A stretch of DNA of 64,000 nucleotides from Rhodobium gokarnense. Its GTDB lineage: Bacteria > Pseudomonadota > Alphaproteobacteria > Rhizobiales > Rhodobiaceae. Location: assembly GCF_025961475.1 (NCBI RefSeq), contig NZ_JAOQNS010000002.1:434001-498000 (forward strand), in the 5' to 3' direction. A program made the translations under genes and the position numbers. Under the pieces are notes generated by a model, which was given only the letters and a program-made list of their open reading frames with translations, was not told the origin of the DNA and ran no database searches. Below are positions 56,631 to 64,000 of this stretch, in pieces. Within the stretch, counting starts at the first letter, position 1. Each line of letters opens with the position of its first letter.

Positions 56631-57935
56631 ATGGCGGAGACGACGGACGCAATCGTGATCGGCGCCGGCATTATCGGTGCGGCGACGACGCTGGAACTGG
56701 CCCGCGCCGGCTTCCGGACCCTTTGCGTCGACAGCCTGCCGGCCGCCGGCTACGGCCCGACCAGCGGTTCCTGCGCCGTCATCCGCGTGCATTACTCGAC
56801 CTTCGAGGGCACGGCCTTCGCCTATGAGGGCTACCACTACTGGCGCGACTGGGCCGACTATCTGGGCGTTGCCGACGAGCGCGGCCTTGCCGAGTTCCGC
56901 GACATCGGCTGCATGGTCATGTGCACCGACGAGAACGGCCACCTGAAGAAGCACACCGACATCTGCGACGAGATCGGCATTCCCTACCAGCGCTGGGACG
57001 CGGCCAAGATCGAGGAGCGCCTGCCGTTCTATGACCTGAGGAGCTATTTCCCGCCCAAGCGCCTCGACGATCCCGACTTCGGCCATTCCAACGGCTGCCG
57101 CCTCAAGGGCTCGGTGTTCTTTCCGACCGCCGGCTACGTCACCGACCCGCAACTCGCCACCCACAATCTGCAGCGCGCGGCCGAGGCCGCCGGTGCGACG
57201 TTCCGCTTCGGGCGCACGGTGACGGAGATCCTCACCGGCGCCGGCCGGGTTTCCGGCGTCCGGCTCGACGACGGCACGATGACCTCCGCGCCCATCGTCG
57301 TCAACGTCGCCGGTCCCGCCTCGGCAAAGGTCAACGCCATGGCCGGGGCCCTCGACGACATGACGATCTCGACCAGGGCCCTGAAGCAGGAGGTGGTGCA
57401 CGTGCCGGCGCCCGACGGCGTCGATTTCTTCAACGCCGCGTTCCCGATTTCCGACAACGACATCGGCTGCTACTGCCGGCCGGAAAAGGGCAACTACATC
57501 CTCATCGGCAGCGAGGACCCGGCATGCGACCCGCGCGAATGGGTCGACCCGGACGGCTACGACACCAATTTCACCGACCAGTGGACCCACCAGGCCTACC
57601 GCTACGCCCAGCGCGTGCCGAGCCTCGGCATCCCGAGCCGCATGCAAGGCGTGGTCGACCTCTACGACGTCTCCGACGACTGGATCCCGATCTACGACAA
57701 GTCCGCCGTCGACGGCTTCTTCATGGCGATCGGCACCTCCGGCAACCAGTTCAAGAACGCGCCCATCGCCGGCAAGATGATGGCCGCCCTCGTTGCCTAC
57801 TGCGCCGAGGGTCACGACCACGACACCAATCCGCTGCAGTTCGAACTGCCCTATCTGGGCCGCAGCATCGACGCCGGCTTCTATTCGCGGAAACGCCCGA
57901 TCAACAAGGAAAGCAGCTTTTCCGTGCTTGGATGA
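56631..57935 (+). CDS. FAD-dependent oxidoreductase (DAO family, sarcosine-oxidase-like)
   Basis: The 434-residue protein opens with the FAD fold AIVIGAGIIGAATTLELARAG and continues with TSGSCAVIRVHYST, VVNVAGPASAKVNAMAG and the C-terminal GTSGNQFKNAPIAGKMMA, typical of the DAO family that oxidises secondary amines such as sarcosine and dimethylglycine. The ATG has a GAGGTGAG site. A methylated-amine substrate would fit the TMAO genes 15 kb away, but that is only suggestive. An APH-type kinase gene converges on it. Confidence 0.85.
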   Translation: MAETTDAIVIGAGIIGAATTLELARAGFRTLCVDSLPAAGYGPTSGSCAVIRVHYSTFEGTAFAYEGYHYWRDWADYLGVADERGLAEFRDIGCMVMCTDENGHLKKHTDICDEIGIPYQRWDAAKIEERLPFYDLRSYFPPKRLDDPDFGHSNGCRLKGSVFFPTAGYVTDPQLATHNLQRAAEAAGATFRFGRTVTEILTGAGRVSGVRLDDGTMTSAPIVVNVAGPASAKVNAMAGALDDMTISTRALKQEVVHVPAPDGVDFFNAAFPISDNDIGCYCRPEKGNYILIGSEDPACDPREWVDPDGYDTNFTDQWTHQAYRYAQRVPSLGIPSRMQGVVDLYDVSDDWIPIYDKSAVDGFFMAIGTSGNQFKNAPIAGKMMAALVAYCAEGHDHDTNPLQFELPYLGRSIDAGFYSRKRPINKESSFSVLG

Positions 57936-58191: not shown

Positions 58192-59241
58192 CTACCCGAA
58201 CCGCGACAGATACCCCTCAGCAAGCTCGACGCTCGTCTGCGTGTACTCCGCCCCGAGCGTCCTAGCGAGGTCGGTGTCGGCGTGGGAGCCCATCCAGGCG
58301 AGGATGATCATCCGGCGCAGCATCAGGAAGGTCGGGATTTCGGCGATATCCTCGGCACCGAGCGGGCGCACCCGGCGGTAGCCGTCGAGCCAGGCCTCGA
58401 TCAGGTCCGGCACCTGCGGCAGGTGCTCCATGAAGGAGAGGGCGGTAGCGACGTCGTAGAGGAACCAGCCGAAGCCGCTGTCGTCGAAGTCGAGCACATG
58501 GGTGTCGTCCTCGGTGACGAGGAGGTTGGCGAGCCGGATGTCGGCATGGACGAGGTTGTAGCGCTCGGGACCCTGGCCGAATGCGGCAAGGCGCCGTTCC
58601 ACGGTCGCCGCCTGCCGCTCCAACAGGGTGACACCCGCCGCATCGACGGCAGGGGCGCCTCGCCAGTCGCCCCAGTTCGGATCGGACCCGAGCGAATGCT
58701 CGAAGTCCCAGGCGTGGCGCTCGAAAAACGCCGGCCGTTGCCACTGGTCGACGTGGCGGTGCATGCGCGCGGAGATCTCGCCGAGGCGCCGGAACGGGCC
58801 CTGAAGGTCGTCGGCCTCCGACGGCTCGCGGCCCTCCAGGAACTCGAACATGACCAGACGGCGGCCCCGCGGGACGGAGGGTGTCGCCCGGTCCTGGATC
58901 GCCGCGCCGTTGAGCCCGGCGATCGGCACCGGCGTGGAAACACCCGCCTCCTCTCGCAGCGCCGTCATCCAGCAAAGCTCGCTCTCGATGGCGGCGCGCG
59001 AATGGTAGCCCTCCCGGTGGACCCTCAGGACCGTCTTTTCCGCATCCCTCGGCTCGACCAGGAAGGTGGCGTTCTCCGACAGGTTGATGAGCGTCAGCCG
59101 CGCCTCGGGGTCCGTGCCCCAGAGCGGCAGGGCGGCGCGGGCGAGCGCTTCCAGCTCGCCGGTCGTCGCCTCGCCGGCGGGCGCCGGGACCTCGTCGGTT
59201 TCCGTCTCCTCAAAAGAATCGCTGTCGCCTGATCGCTGCAT
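58192..59241 (-). CDS. Aminoglycoside phosphotransferase-like kinase (APH/homoserine kinase II type)
   Basis: The 349-residue protein starts at the ATG at 59241; upstream in-frame codons are basic and unlike the family. The kinase-like fold has LSENATFLVEPRDAEKTVLRVHR, the catalytic Brenner motif VHADIRLANLLV, and the Mg-binding VLDFDDSGFGWFLYDVATA. Family members phosphorylate small molecules such as homoserine, choline or aminoglycosides. The convergent oxidoreductase and intergenic repeat give no firm clue to the substrate. Confidence 0.85.
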   Translation of the reverse strand: MQRSGDSDSFEETETDEVPAPAGEATTGELEALARAALPLWGTDPEARLTLINLSENATFLVEPRDAEKTVLRVHREGYHSRAAIESELCWMTALREEAGVSTPVPIAGLNGAAIQDRATPSVPRGRRLVMFEFLEGREPSEADDLQGPFRRLGEISARMHRHVDQWQRPAFFERHAWDFEHSLGSDPNWGDWRGAPAVDAAGVTLLERQAATVERRLAAFGQGPERYNLVHADIRLANLLVTEDDTHVLDFDDSGFGWFLYDVATALSFMEHLPQVPDLIEAWLDGYRRVRPLGAEDIAEIPTFLMLRRMIILAWMGSHADTDLARTLGAEYTQTSVELAEGYLSRFG

Positions 59242-59334
59242 TCGGGATCGTCCGGGCCTTCGAAAAAGAGAATTTCGCGGCGCCCTAGCATGCGAGCGGG
59301 CAGCGGGCAATGCGACCGAGGCGGCGAACGGCCG

Positions 59335-59634
59335 TCAGGCGGCGTAGACGTTGATGTATTTGAGGCAGATGACTCTGAGGCACGAGGCGACGTTCTTGTC
59401 GTTGGCGAGGATGCACTGGTCGATGATGCGCTCGATGAGCTGCGGCACGGTCAGGCTGAGATCGTCGGCCATCAGCTCGATGACGTTCCAGAACGCCCGC
59501 TCCAGCCGCACCGTGGTGGAATGGCCGTGGATTCGGAACGAGCGCTTTTCCGGCACGAATTCGCCGATCTGGTCGGTCGTGCAGGCCTGAAACATGTGAT
59601 CGAGGGGGTCTTTTTCTTCCAGGAAGATCGCCAT
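59335..59634 (-). CDS. Ribbon-helix-helix domain protein
   Basis: The 99-residue protein is chosen from the ATG at 59634. The segment FRIHGHSTTVRLERAFWNVIEL, with LSLTVPQLIERIIDQC and the C-terminal VASCLRVICLKY, matches the RHH_4 type of small DNA-binding proteins of Alphaproteobacteria. It is divergent from the sulfur operon beginning at 59895 and could regulate it; the 260-base region between holds no other gene. Confidence 0.72.
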   Translation of the reverse strand: MAIFLEEKDPLDHMFQACTTDQIGEFVPEKRSFRIHGHSTTVRLERAFWNVIELMADDLSLTVPQLIERIIDQCILANDKNVASCLRVICLKYINVYAA

Positions 59635-59894: not shown

Positions 59895-60386
59895 ATGGAT
59901 CTCTTCAAGAAAACGCTCGACCCGGTGATCGCGCTCGCCGCCATCGCCGTCCTCGACATCTTCCTGTTTCTCATCGTCGGCTCTTGGACCGTCGGCGGCG
60001 GCGAGACCATGATGACGGGGCTCGCGGCCGAAGCCGTCCTCGGAGACGACATCGAACGGCTGCCCTTCTGGAGCCTCGTCTTCCAGCCCGACTGGGGCTA
60101 CTGGAAGATCTATATCAGCCTCGGCATGCTGTTCGGCGCCTTCGTCGCCGCCGTGCTCTCCAAGGAATTCTACCTGCGCATGCCGCGCCGCCTCGGCGAA
60201 TGGGTGATGATCACCATCGGCGGCCTCCTCATGGGCATCGGCATAAGGCTCGCTTTCATCTGCAACGTCTCGACCTTTTTCGGCATCACGCCGGAGGTCA
60301 ATTTCGGCGGCTACCTGGCGATCAGCGGCATCATCGCCGGCGCCTGGGTCGGCTCGCTGATCTACAAGCGCATCCTGGAGGGCTGA
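59895..60386 (+). CDS. YeeE/YedE family transporter, first half
   Basis: The 163-residue membrane protein has four hydrophobic segments and the half-site motif MGIGIRLAFICNVSTFFGI with the key Cys123. The family includes the thiosulfate transporter TsuA, where conserved cysteines pass the sulfur compound across the membrane. Here the transporter is encoded as two genes; the second half starts 4 bases after this stop. A GGGGGAAG site precedes the ATG. Confidence 0.88.
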   Translation: MDLFKKTLDPVIALAAIAVLDIFLFLIVGSWTVGGGETMMTGLAAEAVLGDDIERLPFWSLVFQPDWGYWKIYISLGMLFGAFVAAVLSKEFYLRMPRRLGEWVMITIGGLLMGIGIRLAFICNVSTFFGITPEVNFGGYLAISGIIAGAWVGSLIYKRILEG

Positions 60387-60389
60387 GCG

Positions 60390-61070
60390 ATGAGCCCTGT
60401 CGGTGAATGCATCGTCGCCTTCGTCTTCGGCACCGTCGTCGGCGTCCTCGTTCAACGCTCGCGCTTCTGCAACACGGCGGCCCTGCGCGACGCCATGCTC
60501 TTCAACAGCTATCGCAACACCAAGGCCCTCTTGGTGGCGATGATCATCCTGACCATCGGCTTCACCACCTTCATCTCCATCGGCGAAGGCCACACCATGC
60601 ATTTCGACGTCGGCCTCAACACGGTGGCCGGCCTCTTCCTGTTCGGCATCGGCATGGTGCTTGCCGGCGCCTGCACGGTCTCGACCTGGGTCAAGACCGG
60701 CGAGGGCAATATCGGCGCGCTCTGGGCGCTGATCTTCACCTTCGTCGGCATGTTCCTGTTCTCCCTCGTCTGGTCGTGGAATTTCTGGCCGCCGGCACCG
60801 GCCTCCATGACCGGCAAGATCAACGTGGAAGCCCTGCAACTCGGCTTTTCCAACGCCGCGACGCTGCAGGAAAAGCTCGGCATTCCGGCGATCGTCTTCG
60901 GCCTCGTCCAGGCGGCCGTGCTTCTCCTCATCTACCGGGCGATCCTGAAGAAGGAGGCCGCCCAGCAGGCCCGCCACAAGGCGGCCCAGGAGGAGCGGGC
61001 GCTGAAGAAGGCGATGACCGAAAAAGCATCGGGCAAGACCGGAGAGCCGGTCGCCGAGCCGGCGCAATAA
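60390..61070 (+). CDS. YeeE/YedE family transporter, second half
   Basis: The 226-residue protein has five or six membrane segments and family motifs RSRFCNTAALRDAML (Cys27) and GMVLAGACTVSTWVKTGEGN (Cys near 97). A charged C-terminal tail (KKEAAQQARHKAAQEERALKKAM) projects into the cytosol. Together with the preceding gene it makes one full transporter, probably for thiosulfate or a related sulfur species. The TusA gene follows by 41 bases. Confidence 0.88.
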   Translation: MSPVGECIVAFVFGTVVGVLVQRSRFCNTAALRDAMLFNSYRNTKALLVAMIILTIGFTTFISIGEGHTMHFDVGLNTVAGLFLFGIGMVLAGACTVSTWVKTGEGNIGALWALIFTFVGMFLFSLVWSWNFWPPAPASMTGKINVEALQLGFSNAATLQEKLGIPAIVFGLVQAAVLLLIYRAILKKEAAQQARHKAAQEERALKKAMTEKASGKTGEPVAEPAQ

Positions 61071-61111
61071 CGCACCCAAAGACACAAACAAGCGACACGA
61101 AGGAGGAACCA

Positions 61112-61426
61112 ATGGGTCTGTTCGGATTTGGAGACAAGAAGGGGGCGGAGGCCGCGCCGAAGCCGATGGCGGCGGCAACGCTCAGCGACGGCACCAGCGT
61201 CCAGATCACTGAGGTCGTCGACTGCATCGGCGATTCCTGCCCGCGCCCGCAGCTCATGACCAAGAAGGCCATCGGCAAGATCGAGCCGGGCGAGGTCGTG
61301 GAGGTGTTGGTCGACAACCCGTCCTCGGTGGAGGCTCTGCCGCCCATGTGCGACGAGATCAACGCCACCCATCTTGAGACCGTCAAGGGCGAGCGCTCCT
61401 GGCACGTCTATATCCGCAAGGACTGA
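61112..61426 (+). CDS. TusA-family sulfur carrier protein
   Basis: The 104-residue protein has the CPxP persulfide motif in VVDCIGDSCPRPQLMTKKAI, with Cys38 and Cys43. The TusA fold (EPGEVVEVLVDNPSSVEALP) is preceded by about 30 residues that are not part of the fold and could be a linker to a partner. It would take sulfur from the YeeE/YedE transporter as a protein persulfide. An AAGGAGG site precedes the ATG. Confidence 0.93.
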   Translation: MGLFGFGDKKGAEAAPKPMAAATLSDGTSVQITEVVDCIGDSCPRPQLMTKKAIGKIEPGEVVEVLVDNPSSVEALPPMCDEINATHLETVKGERSWHVYIRKD

Positions 61427-61458
61427 GCGGTGGATCTGCGAACGAAGGGGAGGGGACG

Positions 61459-61665
61459 ATGAGCGGTCCGCTGCTGATGCGGCTCTATTCCATCGCCGTC
61501 GGCGTCATCGTTTTCGCCGGGCTGGCTTACGTCTACGCCGTGCCGCCCCAGTCGATGCGGGTGACCCGCGACGGCCGGCCCCATTTCCAGCCGCAGGTGC
61601 TGCACCCGGAGACGGGCAAGGGCGTGCCCCTCGGCGACCTGATCGACCACTTCAAGGGCGGATGA
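61459..61665 (+). CDS. Small single-span membrane protein in the sulfur operon
   Basis: The 68-residue protein has one N-terminal helix (RLYSIAVGVIVFAGLAYVYAV) and a soluble tail with HFQPQVLHPETGKGVPLGDL. I recognise no family. It is preceded by GGGGAGGGG and followed 4 bases later by another tiny membrane gene. Confidence 0.65.
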   Translation: MSGPLLMRLYSIAVGVIVFAGLAYVYAVPPQSMRVTRDGRPHFQPQVLHPETGKGVPLGDLIDHFKGG

Positions 61666-61669
61666 TGCG

Positions 61670-61762
61670 ATGACCCTCGATGCCCAGACCATTGCCCATT
61701 TCGTGCTCTTCGCGGTGGCGATGTACATCATGTACGTCGCCTTCGTGAAGGAGAGCTACTGA
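61670..61762 (+). CDS. Tiny membrane peptide in the sulfur operon
   Basis: A 30-residue reading frame encodes one hydrophobic helix (IAHFVLFAVAMYIMYVAF) with a short polar end. It lies 4 bases after one small gene and 29 bases before the next. Peptides of this size are often subunits of membrane complexes. I accept it because of position and composition. Confidence 0.5.
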   Translation: MTLDAQTIAHFVLFAVAMYIMYVAFVKESY

Positions 61763-61791
61763 CACAAGAAACGACCAAGGGGGAGAAAACC

Positions 61792-62064
61792 ATGGATCGG
61801 GCAAGCCTGATCTTCTGTGTCGGCGCACTTGCCGCCGCGCTCGTCCTGTCCGTCGTCGGCTTCCAGTTCGCGGCGATGCCGCAGGACGCCGTCGCGGCCG
61901 CCAATACGCCGGTGACGGCCGAGGAAATGGGCGTCGTGGAGCTCGGCGACGGCTTCGGCGAACTCGCCGTTACCGACCTCATGGACTACTACCTGGAAAA
62001 CCCGCCGGTGAGCGATGCCGGCGCCAGCGACACGGTGCCGGAGCGCCGTTTCGGCGGATGCTGA
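61792..62064 (+). CDS. Small anchored or exported protein in the sulfur operon
   Basis: The 90-residue protein has an N-terminal hydrophobic segment (SLIFCVGALAAALVLSVVGF) and an acidic soluble part with VELGDGFGELAVTDLMDYYLENP. It ends with a C-terminal Cys (RRFGGC). Its stop overlaps the rhodanese-like gene by 7 bases. No family is recognised. The terminal Cys in a sulfur operon is notable. Confidence 0.65.
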   Translation: MDRASLIFCVGALAAALVLSVVGFQFAAMPQDAVAAANTPVTAEEMGVVELGDGFGELAVTDLMDYYLENPPVSDAGASDTVPERRFGGC

Positions 62065-63041
62065 AGACCCCGGCCCTGCTGATCGGACTTGCCGCGGTGC
62101 TCCTTGCCGGCGCCGGAACGGACGCGCGGGCCGATTTCCGGTTCCTCGACGATGCCGCGGCGATCCCGGCGGGCGTGGTCGTCGTCGACAGCCGCGACGC
62201 GGACACCTGCGCCGGCGGCGCACCCGCGCGGGCCGAAACCGAGCCCCGCTGCGTGCCGATTGCCGCCGTCATCGGGCCGAATGGCCGGCTCGCGTCCTTC
62301 CGCGACGTTGCCTGGTTCCTCGGCACGGTCGGCCTCGACGGCTCGGAAACGGTGCTCGTCATCGGCGCCCGGGAGCGCGACCGCGACGCCGTCGCAGGCC
62401 TTCTCCACCTTGCGGGCCAGAAAGGCGTGCTGGTCTGGCAGCGGCCGATCAATGCCCTAGGTGAGGATTTCGCGACCGTCTCCGGCCGCATCTCCGAGCC
62501 GGCCCGCCGTGCCGTCTTCCGGGAACCGACGCGCGACGATCGCATTGTGCTTCGGGATGATCTGCAGCGGATGCTGGCCGGGGGCGGTGTGCTGCTCCTC
62601 GACGGGCGTCCGGCAGAGGATTTCTGGGGTGAGAGGACGACGGGCGCGCGGGCGGGCCATCTGCCCGGCGCCCAGTCTCTGCCGGCGCGGGCGCTTCGCG
62701 GCGCAACGCCCGTCGTCGCGCCGGACGGCGTAGACCCCGTTCTTTATGGACGCGGGGCCGTCGACGGCCTTGCCTACTACACCGCCGTCGCCGCCGGGCG
62801 GGGCCGGGCTGCAAGGGTCTATCTGGAAGGCTTCGCCAACTGGGCCGCTTCCGGCCTGCCGCTCGATGCGGAAAGCCATCCGGACCTTACCGCGCCGGGG
62901 CCTGAACGCGTCCGCGCCAAACCGCGTCCCGCGCCGAGGCCCGACGGAAAACTTCTCGCCCTGTCCGCCTCGGTCGGTGCGCTCCTGGGGGCCGCCGTGG
63001 CCGTGGGAACCCTTGCCGTCATTCGCAGAAGGAAAGCCTGA
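62058..63041 (+). CDS. Membrane-anchored tandem rhodanese-like protein lacking the active-site Cys
   Basis: The 327-residue protein has a Sec signal, two rhodanese-like domains at about 25-140 and 165-285 (LLLDGRPAEDFWGERTTG, YLEGFANWAASGLPL), and a C-terminal hydrophobic segment ending RRRKA. At the position of the catalytic cysteine loop the second domain reads VDPVLYGRGAVDG, so Cys is replaced by Gly or Tyr. It may bind rather than transfer sulfur, perhaps as a periplasmic scaffold. Overlaps on both sides (7 bases and 1 base) show tight coupling. Confidence 0.75.
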   Translation: MLKTPALLIGLAAVLLAGAGTDARADFRFLDDAAAIPAGVVVVDSRDADTCAGGAPARAETEPRCVPIAAVIGPNGRLASFRDVAWFLGTVGLDGSETVLVIGARERDRDAVAGLLHLAGQKGVLVWQRPINALGEDFATVSGRISEPARRAVFREPTRDDRIVLRDDLQRMLAGGGVLLLDGRPAEDFWGERTTGARAGHLPGAQSLPARALRGATPVVAPDGVDPVLYGRGAVDGLAYYTAVAAGRGRAARVYLEGFANWAASGLPLDAESHPDLTAPGPERVRAKPRPAPRPDGKLLALSASVGALLGAAVAVGTLAVIRRRKA

Positions 63042-63331
63042 TGGACGTCCTCATCCACATGACCTGCCGCGATGCCGCACGCCTTGCCGCGCCACTCGGC
63101 CGGGCGCTGACCAGCCGCGGCGCCACCTGGGGCTGCTTTCTCACCAACGATGCGGTGTTCGCCGCCGACGATGCCGCCTTCGTCGAGGCCGTCAAGGGCG
63201 CCAGCCGGGCGGTCGTCTGCGAGCATAGCTGGGATCTCCATATGGCCGGCCGCGACAACCCGTTCGAGCGCGGCAGCCAGACCATCAACAGCGGCCTGAT
63301 GGCGGACGCCGCCCGCGTCGTCAGCCTTTAA
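63041..63331 (+). CDS. DsrE-like protein
   Basis: The 96-residue protein starts within the TGA of the previous gene (ATGA overlap). The fold resembles DsrE/TusD: LIHMTCRDAARLAAPLGRAL, then GCFLTNDAVFAA, VCEHSWDLHM and an ending VVSL. Cysteines at residues 9, about 31 and about 59 could be the sulfur-accepting sites. It is the first of three small genes in the DsrEFH/TusBCD style. Confidence 0.65.
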   Translation: MDVLIHMTCRDAARLAAPLGRALTSRGATWGCFLTNDAVFAADDAAFVEAVKGASRAVVCEHSWDLHMAGRDNPFERGSQTINSGLMADAARVVSL

Positions 63332-63343
63332 CGGGAGCGATTG

Positions 63344-63628
63344 ATGGCCGTCACCGAGAAGAAAATCCTGCTGCTCGCCCGCCGCGACCACACCGAGGCG
63401 ATGCGTGTCGCCGCGGGCCTTACCATCTTCGGACACCACGTCCGGCTGGTCTTCATGAACGAGCCCGTCGCCCAGACGGAGGCCAATGCCGAGCAGGCCG
63501 AACTCCTGGATCTCGCCGACATCGAGCCGGAGACGACCGTGCCGGAAATGGCCGACGAGCTCACCCATCTCGATGCCATGGCGCTCGGCGAGGCGATCGC
63601 CGATGCCGACATCGTCATCAACGTCTGA
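63344..63628 (+). CDS. DsrE/DsrF-like protein
   Basis: The 94-residue protein (ATG at 63344, GGGAG upstream) has the strand-helix layout KKILLLARRDHTEAMRVAAG, HHVRLVFMNEPVA and an ending ADADIVINV. It contains no Cys, so it would be a structural partner of the cysteine-bearing subunit. Position and length fit DsrF/TusC. Confidence 0.6.
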   Translation: MAVTEKKILLLARRDHTEAMRVAAGLTIFGHHVRLVFMNEPVAQTEANAEQAELLDLADIEPETTVPEMADELTHLDAMALGEAIADADIVINV

Positions 63629-63640
63629 CGGGAGACCGAC

Positions 63641-63823
63641 ATGCGCATTGCCGCCCTGAAGACGGGGCTTTTCCCCGATACCGACACCGTCGAGACGGCG
63701 CTCGCCGTCCTCGGCGGCGATCATCAGCTTGCCGCCGTCGACCTTGCCGAGGTCGAGGGCGACGGGGCCTGGGAGGAAGTCGCCGACCTGATTTTGTCGG
63801 CGGACCGGGTCGTCACCATCTGA
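63641..63823 (+). CDS. Small DsrH/TusB-like protein
   Basis: The 60-residue protein MRIAALKTGLF... ends ADRVVTI, a pattern like the ends of the two preceding proteins. It is shorter than DsrH (about 95 residues) and has no Cys. The assignment rests on position (third of the trio, 12-base gap) and general fold; unknown protein is the alternative. Confidence 0.5.
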   Translation: MRIAALKTGLFPDTDTVETALAVLGGDHQLAAVDLAEVEGDGAWEEVADLILSADRVVTI

Positions 63824-63857
63824 CCCGAACAAGAACAAAGGAAGGGAAGCAACCACC

Positions 63858-64000
63858 ATGACAAAGCATTCCAGAATTTTTGGCCTGGCCGGCGCGGCGG
63901 CGATCGCCGTCACCGTCCTTGCCGCACCGGCGAGCGCCGCCGATCCGCTGGTCGACGTCGACTGGGTCAAGGCCCATGCCACAGACGACGGCGTCGTCCT
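63858..64000 (+). CDS. Exported protein, probably rhodanese-type sulfurtransferase, 3' end cut by window edge
   Basis: Only 47 codons are inside the window. A Sec signal (FGLAGAAAIAVTVLAAPASA) is followed by DPLVDVDWVKAHATDDGVVL, the usual opening strand and helix of a SseA-like rhodanese. A GGGAAG site precedes the ATG. If it carries the active-site Cys, it would complement the Cys-less rhodanese-like protein at 62058-63041. Confidence 0.6.
   Translation, partial: MTKHSRIFGLAGAAAIAVTVLAAPASAADPLVDVDWVKAHATDDGVV

Follow-up and report, generated by a model that had tools for sequence, protein, structure and literature searches.

The transfer of sulfane sulfur from the periplasm to the enzymes of cytoplasmic oxidation has been described as poorly understood or as proceeding by unknown means (PMC11582611, 2024), and for the Dsr route an unknown sulfurtransferase was invoked in 2012 (PMC3397948). 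Of the systems described so far, the YTD cluster comes closest; its dsrE and its two hypothetical genes have been identified as DsrEFH type II (PMC13293266; PMC13047784, PMC12998232). In vitro, DsrE type II is persulfidated by TusA through its Cys67; DsrEFH type II hands sulfur to DsrC, and canonical DsrE has been linked to sulfur oxidation (PMC13293266). DsrE and CHP1-3 of the YTD cluster are reported only from Desulfobacterota, Nitrospirota and Acidobacteriota (PMC12998232), and one DsrEFH type II subtype is 21% Pseudomonadota (PMC13293266). Among YeeE-family transporters, TsuA of Spirochaeta thermophila has three conserved cysteines and SoxT1A of Hyphomicrobium denitrificans imports sulfur for oxidation (PMC11582611). 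Here we describe an operon of Rhodobium gokarnense in which genes of this kind are combined with rhodaneses, a c-type cytochrome and very small membrane proteins. It lies at the right end of the window, the whole stretch of 64,000 nucleotides that was analysed (positions 434001-498000 of contig C2; genome size 5.1 Mb).

The operon genes named in a sequence-only reading all lie on the + strand within positions 59895-64000 and are spaced by -7 to 41 bases through to the gene for an exported rhodanese, as expected from the compact run with overlaps and short gaps that this reading had described. Their order is yeeA, yeeB, tusA, s68, s30, s90, rhdA, dsrEa, dsrEb, s60 and rhdB, followed by a c-type cytochrome gene beyond the window (s68, s30, s90, s60, rhdA, rhdB, dsrEa and dsrEb are names coined in this analysis). 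The genes named in that reading are all present, and s60 and the cytochrome gene have to be added to its list. No Pfam or NCBIfam model was reached above cut-off by six of the operon proteins, one of them only 30 residues long. With moderate confidence, we interpret the operon as a trans-envelope relay that would import sulfane sulfur for dissimilatory sulfur oxidation. The sequence-only reading had already suggested machinery that shuttles sulfane sulfur between the periplasm and the cytosol. The evidence supports this in part, and it is the reading with the best support: cysteines are conserved on either side of the membrane, the transporter resembles TsuA, one protein has the DsrE fold, and the operon is linked strongly, if not invariably, to Dsr genes.

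To follow the operon across species, we scanned one genome per species with the yeeA alignment, which confirmed 127 loci, and kept the best 80 by yeeA similarity; with loci chosen in this way, the frequency of yeeA relatives lacking the remaining genes is not readable from the counts. By profile search, all twelve genes were found in 59 of the 80 loci, and in 56 of these 59 the order was the same, the other three (L057, L058 and L073) carrying rhdB upstream of yeeA. Two of the complete loci have a yeeB identical to that of another, leaving 57 distinct yeeB sequences. Of the 21 incomplete loci, 16 are cut by a contig end. Of the small genes, s68 is present in 75 and s30 in 71 of the 80 loci (s30 was undetected by profile search in L078, L082 and L084), and tusA follows yeeB in 76. 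Median intergenic gaps across loci range from -1 to 33 bases. The counts for rhdA and rhdB include cross-matches of one to the other in L050, L079, L092 and L093, none of which is among the complete loci. For the column counts given below, sequences were kept if their length was 0.7-1.4 times the median (reducing rhdA from 69 to 51 plus the window), and further alignments drew on 24 of the 80 loci, fewer for rhdA and the cytochrome.

Within the order, 37 of 150 genomes searched with rhdA had a match at E <= 0.001; in seven, R. gokarnense itself included, E was below 1e-20. Among twelve regions inspected around rhdA matches, the gene set was repeated in six, all from the seven genomes with the strongest matches (with rhdB placed ahead of yeeA in G011, and the contig cut in G062); the other six regions, with matches above 1e-20, held no operon. 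No match to rhdA was found by tblastn in the plasmid collection. Hosts of the operon include Rhodobium orientis, Magnetovibrio blakemorei, Thiorhodococcus mannitoliphagus and Sedimenticola. The small open reading frames show substitutions of the coding type, s30 for instance with 70 synonymous against 39 nonsynonymous codon differences (up to 12 hand-chosen pairs). The recurrence of the full set in 59 of 80 loci, its constant order in 56 of 59 and the coding-type substitutions together argue against a chance assembly. The twelve genes form one unit and are not scattered in relatives; their order is almost unchanged across many sulfur oxidizers that are only distantly related to one another.

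The transporter is indeed split, its C-terminal half being encoded by yeeA (59895..60386; 163 amino acids (aa); PF04143 positions 172-310) and its N-terminal half by the adjacent yeeB (60390..61070; 226 aa; PF04143 positions 1-174). YeeA carries C123 in 81/81 rows, aligned with a conserved cysteine located in the C-terminal third of S. thermophila TsuA. Three cysteines (Cys7, Cys27 and Cys95) are conserved in YeeB, and both C27 (76/78 rows) and C95 (78/78) align with TsuA cysteines. The predicted TusA-family sulfur carrier was likewise borne out (61112..61426; PF01206, 8e-19), with Cys43 of its CPRP motif present in 77/77 rows. The host genome encodes a second, full-length YeeE protein (G000:C14:130842-131777), about 6 kb from soxB (138119) and SoxT-like by position.

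Three tiny membrane proteins had been read from the sequence after tusA, and each has one helix: s68 (61459..61665; 68 aa), s30 (61670..61762; 30 aa; with a codon-position signal) and s90 (61792..62064; 90 aa). A single predicted hydrophobic helix was found in 75/75 members of s68, 71/71 of s30 and every member of s90. The C-terminal part of s68, which has no Pfam or NCBIfam match, is probably in the periplasm. In s90 the final residue is a cysteine in 73/73 members, a second cysteine (Cys9) is present in 65/74 rows, and charge bias predicts a C-terminus outside, in the periplasm. We consider s90 a candidate periplasmic sulfur carrier; a profile search of the Protein Data Bank (PDB) with it returned no usable match.

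Directly downstream, rhdA (62058..63041) encodes an exported protein of rhodanese fold (PF00581, 7e-7). The membrane-anchored rhodanese-like protein of the sequence-only reading is recovered here in its hydrophobic N- and C-terminal stretches, the latter a putative anchor, while the cysteine expected in the active-site loop of a rhodanese is replaced. Two other cysteines of the first domain, C51 and C65, are each kept in 51/52 length-filtered rows. RhdA is short in several loci, among them L052, L074 and L101 (160-202 aa), which apparently lack the second rhodanese domain. The exported rhodanese candidate, the two-domain protein rhdB, is encoded from 63858 to about 64796, past the window end at 64000; it has two stretches matching PF00581 (4e-28) and a CNTGHW active-site loop, whose Cys266 is present in 64/66 rows (up to three of which may be rhdA cross-matches). 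The c-type cytochrome follows at about 64950-65630, on the + strand, with its CxxCH motif in 61/61 rows; the gap before it is 153 bases in this genome versus a median of 7 in the other loci.

Between the two rhodanese genes lie dsrEa (63041..63331; 96 aa), dsrEb (63344..63628; 94 aa) and s60 (63641..63823; 60 aa). The proposal of DsrE-like proteins holds best for dsrEa, a candidate sulfurtransferase that showed a confident DsrE-superfamily fold when compared against structures with VIA-align, and in which C60, present in 69/69 rows, would be the active cysteine. It does not extend to the sequence models, since none of the three matched the curated DsrE/TusD model or the Pfam DsrE model at E up to 1, a result that sets the trio apart from DsrEFH type I. 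DsrEb is possibly DsrF-like: profile-profile comparison gave DsrF a probability of 23% and neither DsrE nor DsrH more than 0.8%, and in a PDB profile search DsrF (2hy5_B) was a weak match (E 0.26) outranked by stringent starvation protein A (E 0.025), whose NCBIfam model also matched weakly and far below cut-off (E 0.0076). PDB profile searches with dsrEa and s60 gave no usable match, and s60, a short alpha/beta protein, occupies the DsrH position in gene order. In dsrEa a second cysteine is also conserved (65/69 rows), but the window has Asn at this position and the close relative L048 has Ser.

Sulfur oxidation genes were scored in 53 operon genomes, comprising 6 genomes and those of 47 of the 80 loci. 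DsrA was detected at E <= 1e-50 in 49 (46 over the cut-off) and SoxB in 45 (41 over the cut-off). In the order sample dsrEb was found in 8/150 genomes, six of them with dsrA, one (G011) with dsrB over the cut-off and one (G097) with neither. Set against the other 142 genomes, of which 14 had dsrA, these eight gave p 3e-6 (uncorrected for kinship, three of the eight belonging to one genus and two to another). SoxB was present in 56/150 genomes, and the operon in 7/21 Dsr-positive genomes versus 1/41 that were SoxB-positive and Dsr-negative (p 0.0015, a comparison of lists). Among 398 genomes sampled from the phylum, 53 had dsrA; dsrEb was clear in R. gokarnense and G449, both dsrA-positive, and borderline in G555 (E 9.7e-4), which lacks dsrA. 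Overall, the operon accompanies Dsr more than Sox, with exceptions, and most sampled Dsr-positive genomes do not carry it. In R. gokarnense the canonical dsr genes lie elsewhere, apart from the operon (G000:C2:24000-43000; models identified dsrA, dsrB and dsrE, and dsrF, dsrH, dsrC and further genes were read by eye). Nor does the operon belong to a sox cluster: it is on contig C2 and soxB on C14. In G012, the genes that separate dsr from the operon look by eye like glycogen genes.

This distribution bears on two further explanations. An assimilatory role in thiosulfate uptake or in sulfur supply for cofactors, as for TsuA-TsuB in E. coli, would account for a TsuA-like transporter with a TusA-like partner, yet we consider it very improbable given the patchy occurrence of the operon (8/150 in the order), its concentration in Dsr-positive genomes and a cytochrome and two rhodaneses for which assimilation has no need. 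It is also conceivable that the relay runs outward and delivers sulfane sulfur from the cytoplasm to acceptors in the periplasm or to sulfur globules, or that it serves detoxification, as direction is not readable from sequence. That the same-family proteins TsuA and SoxT1A import (PMC11582611; PMC11073785), and that the hosts are mostly Dsr-positive with a canonical DsrE, which is tied to sulfur oxidation (PMC13293266), makes export improbable in our view.

Several observations weigh against an import relay serving Dsr. Two operon genomes, G171 and G194, have neither DsrA nor a true DsrB, and in G011 and G152 the dsrA search gave only a match of DsrB level. G097, 98% complete and SoxB-positive, carries all twelve genes and the regulator gene described below (at G097:C2:40000-59000; its rhdA had been missed by the rhdA search of the order) without dsrA or dsrB. 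Conversely, 51 of the 53 Dsr-positive genomes of the phylum sample had no dsrEb match. Canonical DsrE is present in 50/53 and DsrE2 in 46/53 operon genomes, and the operon is therefore not the only possible route. None of the three representatives typed from the clusters of recurrent flanking genes was a sox or dsr gene; extension to the right yielded the end of rhdB and the cytochrome. Within the trio, dsrEa fits chain 2hy5_C best among those of DsrEFH, and its subunit equivalence is therefore not read from the fold; s60 has no conserved cysteine column (66 rows) and no decisive fold match, so that the active cysteine of type I DsrH is missing if s60 is its counterpart. Finally, L079 and L107 lack the cytochrome and have no rhdA between s90 and dsrEa (in L107 rhdB is moreover on the opposite strand), showing that rhdA is not always needed. 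Three stricter ideas were rejected on these data: that Dsr is strictly required (by G097), that the operon replaces the DsrE2 route and that it supplies a missing DsrEFH (by the presence of DsrE2 and canonical DsrE in most hosts).

The loss of rhdA in these two loci would also fit an ordinary YTD cluster with passengers, in which only yeeAB, tusA and the DsrE-like trio cooperate and the rhodaneses, cytochrome and small proteins serve elsewhere, and this core set alone does correspond to the published cluster (PMC13293266; PMC12998232). With s68, s30 and s90 keeping their place between tusA and the trio across classes, we find this reading rather improbable. Under the import relay that we favour, rhdB would take sulfane sulfur in the periplasm from thiosulfate, polysulfide or sulfur stores and load it onto thiols, and the degenerate anchored rhodanese rhdA, with its cysteine pair, would together with s90 hold and present it, the C-terminal cysteine of s90 swinging on a flexible tail. 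The cytochrome might remove the electrons freed by persulfide or disulfide formation. YeeA-YeeB, helped by s68 and s30, would then pass sulfur across the membrane to TusA, from which it could reach Cys60 of a presumed dsrEa-dsrEb-s60 complex that in most hosts would feed DsrEFH/DsrC and DsrAB. More tentatively still, and below even chances, we suggest a dedicated machine not described before, in which a membrane-tethered periplasmic carrier of a new class, with a terminal cysteine, receives sulfane sulfur from a rhodanese while a c-type cytochrome keeps the balance. The carrier would supply a split YeeE channel, held in turn by two micro-proteins, and through it TusA and the DsrE-like complex, making the machine the missing link between periplasmic sulfur and Dsr in many sulfur oxidizers. 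The operon proteins are candidate parts for a poorly known step, the passage of sulfur inward through the inner membrane to the oxidation enzymes, and a membrane-spanning, self-contained operon of conserved order in named strains makes this transfer directly testable.

Upstream of yeeA and divergent from it lies a gene for a putative regulator of the RHH_4 family (59335..59634, - strand; 99 aa; PF13467, 9e-21) with conserved cysteines. Homologues were found in 57/80 loci, mostly divergent just upstream of yeeA and in a few cases elsewhere (e.g. L107 and L123), and Cys18, Cys74 and Cys85 are present in 41/41 and Cys90 in 38/41 aligned rows. The protein is a candidate sulfur-responsive regulator of the operon; to our knowledge the RHH fold is not usually linked to sulfur sensing. 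These four conserved cysteines, the frequency of the gene and the precedent of SoxT1B in Hyphomicrobium (PMC11582611) speak for a sulfur-signalling module, importing a little sulfur to set the redox state of the RHH protein, but twelve structural genes far exceed the needs of a sensor, and in 21 loci with at least 1.5 kb of upstream sequence the operon genes persist without it. We therefore regard signalling as unlikely, if somewhat less so than export. In 13 of these 21 loci we found a gene whose cluster representative is a PF12974 binding protein (L125:6210-7028), together in all thirteen with clusters represented by a HAMP histidine kinase (L121:7153-8514; 18 loci, 14 without RHH) and a sigma-54 regulator (L099:4463-5788; 17 loci, 14 without RHH), the representatives each lying upstream of the operon. 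This three-gene set apparently stands, for the most part, in place of the RHH gene. The tree groups the loci with it together, plus L122 (which has the RHH gene) and L124, loci with little upstream sequence being labelled RHH by default. TtrS likely binds tetrathionate through a PhnD-like domain (PMC5408782). The genes adjoining the regulator in the window, for a PF01636 phosphotransferase-family protein (58192-59310, - strand) and a PF01266 FAD-dependent oxidoreductase (56631-57935, + strand), appear unrelated to the operon.

SoxY carries sulfur in the periplasm on a cysteine of a C-terminal, glycine-containing arm. The likeness of s90 to it is one of resemblance only, as s90 is membrane-anchored and ends in the cysteine itself. 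With SoxT1A and SoxT1B the operon shares YeeE-family import for cytoplasmic oxidation, TusA as likely acceptor and a one-helix protein nearby (56 aa), whereas SoxT is full length (330-350 aa against 163 + 226 aa here), linked to sox or shdr, and served by a proposed DsbA/SoxS where here a rhodanese and s90 are found (PMC11582611). Separate genes for the C- and N-terminal YeeE halves are also known from PmpA and PmpB, which are about 130 aa with one cysteine each, in contrast to the larger halves and three conserved YeeB cysteines described here (PMC11582611). The trio resembles canonical DsrEFH (type I; PMC3397948) and DsrE2 in the DsrE-superfamily fold, the invariant cysteine of dsrEa and a gene order suggestive of E-F-H, and departs from type I in its failure to match DsrE models, in its protein lengths and in an s60 without conserved cysteine.

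The sequence-only reading had taken the exact gene set for one not yet described. For the split transporter with s68, s30, s90, rhdA, rhdB and cytochrome c, we found no description in the literature searched, most subscription papers being outside its reach, and the periplasmic half and the micro-proteins are undescribed as far as that literature goes. The core is by gene content the published YTD cluster with DsrEFH type II, likened by description and not by sequence: PF04143 halves adjoin PF01206, and yeeE, tusA, a DsrE-like gene with a conserved cysteine and two more small genes stand side by side, the trio unrecognised by sequence models. Unlike the published cluster, the operon has a split transporter and the added genes, and nearly all its hosts have canonical DsrE, whereas type II occurs mainly with reductive DsrAB (PMC13293266). 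The type II subtype with Pseudomonadota members may include this trio, and the cytoplasmic half of the operon can be regarded as known in outline.

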